The notes under the pieces were generated by a model. That model ran no database searches. It was not told where the DNA came from and worked only from the letters and a program-made list of their open reading frames with translations. From a virus: a stretch of DNA of 29,950 nt. This document shows, one piece after another, positions 5,449 to 7,696 of the stretch. Where the stretch lies: IMG/VR virus record IMGVR_UViG_3300037200_000201, positions 1 through 29,950 of that record. The stretch is one strand, 5' to 3'. Position 1 is the stretch's first letter; each line of letters begins with the position of its first letter. The position numbers and the translations under genes are program-made.

Positions 5449-7696
5449 CGCTGCGCTCGCGGTCGTCGCGGATTCTACCGCGCTCGCGATCATCACCGCG
5501 ACCGGGCTCAAGCGCGAACAGATCGAGCTGATCAAGAGCACCGTCGCCGTCGGCGCGACGGACATGGAACTCGCGCTGCTCATTCAGACGGCCCATCACC
5601 GTGGCCTCGACTTGCTGACTCGTCAGATGCACTTTGTGAAGCGCAAGGTGAATCGGCAGAATCCGATTACCGGCGCCTACGAAGACGTCATGGTCGGCAC
5701 CATGCAGACCGGCATCGACGGCTTTCGGCTGATTGCCGATCGCACCGGAAAGTACGACGGGCAAGACGACGCCGAGTTTGAGTATCTCGATCCGGCGAAG
5801 AAGACGTACCCATTCCTGGCCCGCGTTCGCGTCTATAAAACGGGCGTCGGCCGGCCGTTCGTCGGGACCGCGCACTTCAGCGAGTACGCGCAGACGAAAT
5901 ACAACGGCGAGCTGACGATGATGTGGAAAAATAAGCCGCACGTTATGCTCGCGAAGTGCTTCAGTTCGGACACTGAGATCCTTACGGATCGCGGCTTTCA
6001 GCGATTCGCCGAAGTGACCGGGCGTGTGTTGCAGGTGAGCGAGCGTGGGCTAGAGGTGATCAGCGCGAAGCCTTTTGCGCAAAGCTACGACGGGCCGATG
6101 GTAACACTTGACAGCGACGATCTTAACTTTTGCGTGACGCCGAACCACGATATGGTTACGACCGCGGGTAAGATTGAAGCGGGCGTGATGTACGAAGCTG
6201 CTCGAGTGAGGCCGCAATTTGAAATTCCTCGCAGCGTACGCGGTTCTCGGCCGCTCGCGGATGTCGCAGACGCTCGCCTCGTGTTGCTTGGCGCCTATCT
6301 TGCTGACGGTAGTTGGAACAACGGCCATCCGCGAATCGAAGTTTCTCGGCCGCATAAGGTTGAGCGCCTTCGTGCGCTTGGTCTTCACAGCAAAGAGTCT
6401 GTCAGGCAAACCGCCGGCGACGTTGCGGTGGCTCGAGGCGGACGCACCGTCGTTACAAAATCTGACAAGACGACGTTCCATTATGCTCAGGATTTATTTG
6501 AGCCGTACGTCTACGGGGTTGCTAAAGCGATCGACATGGCTGCAATGCTCGGGCTGGCGCGAGAGCAGATCCGCACGATCGTCGACGCCTGGATAGCGTT
6601 CGACGGCAGCATGAACAAGAAAACCGGTGTGCGTCGCTGGTATTCTTCGAGCCCGGAGCACGTTTCGTCGTTCGAAGTGATGGCCGTAGCCGCGGGGTAC
6701 GCGGTCAACGTCGCGCGGACGCGCATCTCAGACATTTCGCAACGGCCGAATTACGTCGTTACTATCAGCTCTCGGGACGCGATCGGCGTCCGCCGATGGG
6801 GTCGCGAGTACAATTACGCGCGATCTGAGCCGAATCGTCATCATCCCGGACTGGTGCTAACCACGAATGGAAGCAGTCAGGTGTGGTGCGTCACGGTCCC
6901 TAGCGGGGTTATCGTCGTGCGTCGGAACGGGTTCTCGATGCTCTGCGGCAATTGCGCGGAGGCCCTCGCTCTGCGCAAAGCGTTCCCGGAGAACCTTTCC
7001 GGGTTGTACACGGACGACGAGATGCCGACGATCGACGGCGAGGCGATCGTGCACACTACACCGGCAGCGCGTCCGACCGGAACGGTGACGCAGATGCCGC
7101 AACGTGAGCAGCAGCCAGCTGCCGCGGCGACCGATCACGCACCGATCATCGTCGACGTGCCTCCCGAGGGGTCGGATACTGCAACGCTGCGCGCGTGGGT
7201 CGGGAAGAAGCTTGCGTTCTCGTCGAAAAACTGGACCGGGAAAGAGATGGCGCATGCCTGCGCCGAGGTTGCCGCGGTGCTCGGTCGCGATCCGGCGACG
7301 GTGACGCCGAAGACGCTCTCGCAGGATCTTGTGGCGTACCGCGACGCGATCGCCGCTGCGCGTACGGCTCCTGTCCAAGAGCCAGCCGCCGAGACGGCGA
7401 TGGCTGATGCGGCACCGGAAGCCGATACGCCGGCCGAACCTTTGGGGCGCGCCCTCGACGACGTTGCGACGCTCGCCGGATCCGAAGCGTACAGCGCGAT
7501 CGAGGCATACCTGCGCGAGCACGGCATCGACGAGGAGAATGCGACGCTTCAAGAACTGGTCGCGCACGCTTCCGAGGCCGACGGCACGGGCGTCGTGTAC
7601 GCCTGGCGTCGCCTCAAGTCCGCAGGACTCAAAGTGCTGCTCGAGCTGCTACTCAAGCCGATGCTCAAGCCGGAGAAAGACGAGGTACCCAGTTGA
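5438..7696 (+). CDS. bet: Bet/RecT-type single-strand annealing protein interrupted by an intein
   Basis: The precursor is 752 residues from ATG 5438 (AGAGG just upstream; an in-frame ATG at 5405 lies inside the KTSC gene). Residues 1-173 and 506-752 are the host protein. The N-part has the Bet signature, with [20 protein letters not shown], then [20 protein letters not shown], and [16 protein letters not shown]. After removal of residues 174-505 the conserved motif [21 protein letters not shown] is restored. Such proteins anneal complementary DNA strands during phage recombination. The C-terminal 220 residues after the core are Ala/Pro-rich linker plus helical segments, longer than usual, and may bind partner proteins. 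The spliced product would be 420 residues. No exonuclease partner gene is visible nearby. Confidence 0.92.
   Translation: [752 protein letters not shown]
5957..6952 (+). other. Intein with LAGLIDADG-type homing endonuclease inside Bet
   Basis: This is a 332-residue in-frame insertion. Block A starts with Cys1 ([14 protein letters not shown]). Block B is VTPNHDM, with T61 and H64. LAGLIDADG-like motifs are [10 protein letters not shown] near 110-119 and AWIAFDGS near 211-218. Block F is [18 protein letters not shown] and the end is SMLCGN, followed by Cys+1 of the extein. The terminal Asn is present, but the residue before it is Gly rather than the common His, a known variant that may slow splicing. 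Both endonuclease motifs keep an acidic residue. The insertion falls inside the most conserved Bet motif, as inteins usually do. The intein should excise itself and could drive its own spread among related phages. Confidence 0.93.

Follow-up and report, generated by a model that had tools for sequence, protein, structure and literature searches.

The window analyzed in our study, a stretch of 29,950 nucleotides of viral DNA, was found to contain a recT/bet gene on the plus strand that is interrupted by an insert. ORF analysis of the window showed that nucleotides 5405–7696 form a single open frame, which holds both RecT halves together with the insert. The likely start of bet is the ATG at 5438, which is preceded by a Shine-Dalgarno-like AGAGGTG sequence, and a second in-frame ATG is present at 5405. 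The stop codon is located at 7694–7696. The precursor read from the ATG at 5438 is about 752 amino acids long, and it is predicted to give a spliced Bet of 420 amino acids and an intein of 332 amino acids.

The N-extein (5438–5956, plus strand) was found to be 173 amino acids long and matched PF03837 RecT (E 1.1e-18) and TIGR01913, with 67% identity to the exteins of the intein-free homologs L100 and L101. The C-extein (6953–7693, plus strand; 247 amino acids) was placed by alignment with L100 and L101; it begins with the Cys+1 of a conserved 11-residue motif and contains the second RecT piece. The PF03837 match was broken at the insert into two pieces, at 5507–5959 and 6953–7042, respectively. 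The extein passed the PF03837 cut-off (68 bits against 24), and the unspliced precursor missed the TIGR01913 bet_lambda equivalog cut-off (71.3 bits against 76.95); the protein is therefore assigned to the RecT/Bet superfamily and not strictly to the lambda Bet equivalog. In PHROGs, the flanks of the insert matched a RecT-like annealing protein (E 3e-41).

A small ORF of unknown function (5170–5448; phrog_3292) overlaps the start of bet by 11 bases, which suggests translational coupling. The window also contained a transposase-like ORF at 657–1601 with PHROGs matches of unknown function, which we take to be of the IS1595/ISXO2 type, followed by a tRNA-Ala (CGC) at 2903–2979 near the left end. 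A helicase, two DNA methyltransferases, and a RuvC-like resolvase were found within 11228–14875 and 19071–20321. The terminase, portal, and head genes are present from 21813 onward, and no insert was noticed in them.

Anatomy and Fold of the Intein

The intein extends from nucleotide 5957 to 6952 on the plus strand and encodes 332 amino acids, from Cys1 to Gly331-Asn332. Its borders are exact, with C1 at the beginning and Gly-Asn at the end followed directly by Cys+1, and they agree with the family alignment, the predicted structure, the Foldseek and VIA-align matches to inteins, and the homologs with an empty site. When the insert was removed in silico, the extein motif became the same as that of L100 and L101.

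The N-terminal Hint splicing half (5957–6256, plus strand; residues 1–100, border approximate) contained a 14-residue block A, followed by the presence of block B VTPNHDM at 6134–6154 (plus strand). Block B carries the TxxH sequence as Thr61-Pro-Asn-His64, in which the His is invariant and the Thr is conserved in at least 90% of the 23-member family alignment. The LAGLIDADG homing endonuclease domain is located at 6257–6850 (plus strand; residues about 101–298, borders approximate), with Foldseek matches to PI-SceI, TliVMA, and I-DmoI. Its motif 1 (block C, LLGAYLADG; 6284–6310, plus strand) contained Asp117, conserved in at least 90% of the 23 members, and the invariant Gly118, whereas in the 10-residue motif 2 (block E; 6578–6607, plus strand) both Asp216 and Gly217 were invariant. 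Asp117 and Asp216, together with a fold that matches I-DmoI, I-SceI, and PI-SceI, identify a LAGLIDADG endonuclease. The C-terminal Hint half (6851–6952, plus strand) contained a 15-residue block F with a Cys at F:4 and without the block-F His, followed by block G FSMLCGN. The absence of the block-F His is a feature that the preliminary description does not mention. The penultimate His, which is frequent in class 1 inteins but does not define them, is likewise missing from the window intein, where Gly331 is found in its place.

The end residues of a class 1 intein, C1, N332, and C+1, were present and conserved in the 23 members, of which three end in Gln. The block B His, the F:4 Cys, the RR pair in block F, and the Asp in each LAGLIDADG motif were likewise retained in the alignment. 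The preliminary description, which had reported an intein with blocks A, B, F, and G and two LAGLIDADG motifs, interrupting Bet just before a conserved Cys, is borne out on each of these points: all of the blocks and motifs are conserved in the 23 members, Cys+1 begins at 6953, and the motif is whole in L100 and L101. A class 3 intein was considered and rejected, as Cys1 is present and the Trp-Cys-Thr triplet is not (B:12 is Met66, F:4 is Cys311, and G:5 is Cys330). The existence and identity of a class 1, LAGLIDADG-bearing intein within RecT/Bet at 5957–6952 are very secure; its functions are those that we infer below.

The AlphaFold2 model of the intein, built from the 23-member alignment, had a pLDDT of 92.4 and a pTM of 0.90. 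The best whole-length PDB matches in Foldseek were the TliVMA, PhoVMA, and PI-SceI inteins, followed by LAGLIDADG enzymes, with an E-value of 6.8e-13 to a Hint-LAGLIDADG intein. VIA-align of the model to TliVMA gave a Z of 19.2 with an rmsd of 5.9 over 283 residues, and the Hint part alone aligned to many inteins with an rmsd of 2–3 over about 125 residues. Besides the full-length inteins, many Hint structures matched the model at Z 12–16. Structure prediction, which had been set beforehand as a check that could refute the intein, thus recognized the Hint fold. In the viral structure library, the matches were phage polymerases, methylases, ribonucleotide reductases, and terminases with such domains.

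The sequence profiles were far less sensitive. NCBIfam intein_Nterm matched 15 of the 23 family members (best 5.5e-6), whereas the window intein as a single sequence gave weak profile matches (TIGR01445, E 0.037) and no significant match in the Pfam, NCBIfam, or PDB sequence searches. An intein profile search of PDB returned chance hits only, and the identity was settled by the fold search. In PHROGs, the insert was weakly similar to families of phage thymidylate synthases and PhoH-like proteins, and the matched stretches in these resemble intein ends. Annotation of the single sequence would therefore miss the intein, and the standard profiles overlook this intein clade on single sequences.

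Family Members and Empty Sites

The family was collected first by scanning viral contigs with the single sequence and then by searching viral and GTDB contigs with profiles. We found 22 further distinct phage or prophage RecT/Bet genes with an intein at the identical bond; near-identical copies were present in several contigs, and copies were also found in three genome assemblies. The other 22 inteins showed 38–58% identity to the window copy, and Cys+1 was kept in all 23 members. Such conservation across divergent RecT proteins, together with the NCBIfam and fold matches, excludes a chance resemblance. In one contig, L094, the match to the Bet C-extein (3465–3527) ends right after Cys+1 near the contig end, possibly owing to a frameshift, a chimera, or a different C-extein; L094 was excluded from the trees because its C-extein departs from RecT sequence directly past Cys+1.

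The closest Bet homologs, L100 and L101 (67% over the extein), are intein-free and read through the 16-residue motif without interruption, within a stretch of 30 residues that differs between the two by a Y for F in L101. The profile scan yielded at least 597 confirmed RecT relatives with the uninterrupted motif, and 76 of 80 further RecT loci were contiguous by a simple pattern. As the scan for the uninterrupted motif selects for empty sites, these counts indicate that filled sites are a minority but provide no occupancy rate. In the plasmid search, the intein had no match. A scan of 399 genomes from a single bacterial order was positive for the seed genome alone, which indicates that the intein is rare in bacteria.

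Insertion Site and DNA Contacts

The insertion site is the RecT/Bet motif (L/I)xK|C(A/T)EAxxLR, in which K(-1), C(+1), E, A, L, and R were invariant in ten exteins spanning 21–69% identity to L100. A profile of the related exteins matched lambda Redbeta 7UJL (E 1.3e-9), a single profile match at low identity, and counting along this alignment places the insertion bond between H153 and K154 of Redbeta. In the Redbeta177-DNA structure the template strand is held by R128, W143, H153, K154, and R161 (PMC9512822), and the R161A and R152A mutations badly impaired ssDNA binding (PMC3823998). The insert separates the counterparts of the template contacts H153 and K154, so annealing should need splicing; an unspliced Bet should neither bind DNA properly nor anneal. 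The dependence of annealing on intein removal that the preliminary description proposed is thus a structurally sound prediction.

Gly-Asn Terminus

Gly was the penultimate residue in 50 of 52 distinct C-terminal segments of the intein clade. Among the 23 RecT inteins, 21 contained Gly, one contained Arg (L008), and one, L033 (1235–2200), contained the canonical His as CHN. The RDF intein of mycobacteriophage Bethlehem, with a penultimate Gly, splices completely, and with His in place of this Gly splicing slows, reaching about 50% over more than 5 h (PMC5050341); some functional inteins carry a residue other than His at this position, according to a review (PMC4031507). The suggestion of the preliminary description that a Gly-Asn end would make splicing slow or conditional is therefore unsupported, as Gly is the norm of the clade and the RDF intein is unhindered by it.

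The block-F His was found in 5 of 6 Gln-ended segments (L008, L022, L034, L040, and L096), whereas it was found in none of the 46 Asn-ended segments (Fisher p 2e-6, a statistic that ignores relatedness). This association is consistent with the participation of the block-F His in cyclization described earlier (PMC8175363), and it possibly reflects compensation between the cyclizing residue and its helper.

Mobility and Selection

The mean pairwise identity was 44% in the intein and 28% in the extein, and the intein was closer than the extein in 94% of pairs. The intein clade L031+L035+L095+L006+L024 was rejected by the extein alignment (AU p 1.8e-6), followed by the grouping W+L100+L101+L013 (AU p 0.007), both picked after the trees had been viewed; the reverse tests, in which the extein clades were confronted with the intein data, did not reach significance (p 0.06–0.34). 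The conflict between the two histories points to horizontal movement, as homing predicts, and it leads us to reject strict vertical descent. Intein and extein distances were weakly correlated (Mantel r 0.36, p 0.0002), which indicates some co-inheritance.

The GC3 of the window intein was 0.66, whereas that of the exteins was 0.82 and 0.77. The dN/dS was 0.09 overall and 0.10 in the endonuclease domain in the one close pair available, L024/L025, in which the endonuclease appears to be maintained by purifying selection. Taken together, the tree conflict, GC3, and dN/dS support an element that is probably still homing, or was homing until recently.

Discussion

In our study, the insert in Bet very probably represents a class 1 homing intein, which would splice, cleave, and make annealing dependent on its removal. 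The precursor of about 752 amino acids would fold, Cys1 would take the N-extein as a thioester, and the N-extein would then pass to Cys+1. Asn332 would cyclize without assistance from a penultimate or block-F His, the two residues that usually promote this step, and ligation of the exteins would give the 420-amino-acid Bet and free the 332-amino-acid endonuclease. The freed enzyme is expected to cleave recT alleles that lack the intein, at the empty site or close to it, when phages co-infect a cell or superinfect a lysogen, and repair of the cut allele would copy the intein in.

The intein may instead be a regulatory switch, with Bet splicing slowly or in response to ssDNA, redox, or temperature so that annealing comes on when needed, as in Pyrococcus horikoshii RadA. 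Splicing of RadA inteins responds to ssDNA (PMC5790916, PMC8987985), Bet too binds ssDNA, and the insert lies in the DNA groove of Bet; both assisting His residues are absent, and inhibitory disulfides among Cys1, the Cys(-3) of LCGN, and Cys+1 are conceivable as an idea. However, the penultimate Gly is a trait of the clade and not specific to the window Bet, a phage intein with this residue splices fully and fast (PMC5050341), selfish spread suffices to explain an endonuclease that looks maintained, and intein-free homologs are far commoner, so a switch is dispensable in general. We consider such regulation unlikely. A DNA-sensing switch, in which ssDNA in the Bet groove would trigger splicing, annealing, and release of the endonuclease, appears somewhat less likely again; if true, it would couple homing to the recombinase that repairs the break.

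The missing penultimate and block-F His could also mark a decaying intein that has lost splicing and leaves Bet inactive in the window phage. This is improbable, as the remaining catalytic residues are intact in an open frame, most of the 23 members share the His-less set at identities too low (38–58% to the window copy) for a recent death, and dN/dS is low in the close pair L024/L025. Some Hint domains, the bacterial intein-like domains, cleave instead of splicing, and Bet might accordingly keep the insert unspliced for another function, as such a domain or as a permanent endonuclease fusion. It is very improbable that it does, since the insert interrupts the most conserved RecT/Bet motif between two DNA-contact positions, Cys+1 is kept throughout the family, and the motif is whole in the intein-free alleles. 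An assembly or chimera artifact might be suspected, since the window belongs to a virus contig of a metagenome collection; this is refuted by the recurrence of the insert at the identical bond in 22 other distinct genes, with near-identical copies in several contigs and copies in three genome assemblies.

The homing intein of Bet resembles PI-SceI of yeast VMA1 and TliVMA/PhoVMA, in which an endonuclease with two LAGLIDADG motifs is likewise inserted into a Hint splicing domain and to which the whole model aligns at Z 16–19 over 268–284 residues. It differs from them in its RecT/Bet host, its shorter length (332 amino acids), an identity of 12–19%, the penultimate Gly instead of His, the lack of a block-F His, and the Cys at F:4. 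The block F/G pattern is shared with phage inteins having a WC..VP.G....RR.G.....GN C-terminus, found in 221 phage records; whole-length tblastn matches had 20–25% identity. These inteins are present in terminase, DNA methylase, DNA polymerase, ribonucleotide reductase, and thymidylate synthase, and they differ in their insertion sites, with no RecT/Bet host among the phage-record matches listed. A phage gene resembling a ribonucleotide reductase subunit in L010 (from 4001) was found to contain two inteins, the first short, of mini-intein size, and the second further on.

By its description, the Bethlehem RDF intein (Kelley et al., 2016; PMC5050341) is also a class 1 phage intein with a penultimate Gly and an endonuclease, in a different extein. 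The Pyrococcus horikoshii RadA intein (PMC5790916) likewise lies inside an ssDNA-binding recombination protein; however, RadA belongs to the RecA/Rad51-type ATPases and has no relation to RecT, and its intein is conditionally spliced and without an endonuclease. Bet was not recognized as a standard intein host in the preliminary description, and our results support this: Bet/RecT is missing from the mycobacteriophage intein hosts tabulated by Kelley et al. (2016), and no earlier description of an intein in RecT, Bet, or an annealing protein was found in the open-access literature, although absence there is not proof. The chemistry of the intein is ordinary, and the new part, which we could not find described, is the host protein and the insertion bond.

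With this element the RecT/Redbeta family, which is widely used in genome engineering, joins the intein hosts, and the bond recurs in the 23 genes collected. The finding raises two testable questions, whether a recombinase intein can splice fast without either assisting His, and whether an intein housed in a phage annealing protein exploits this host for its own homing. Controlled recombineering in laboratory strains could gain a practical handle in a RecT whose activity awaits splicing.
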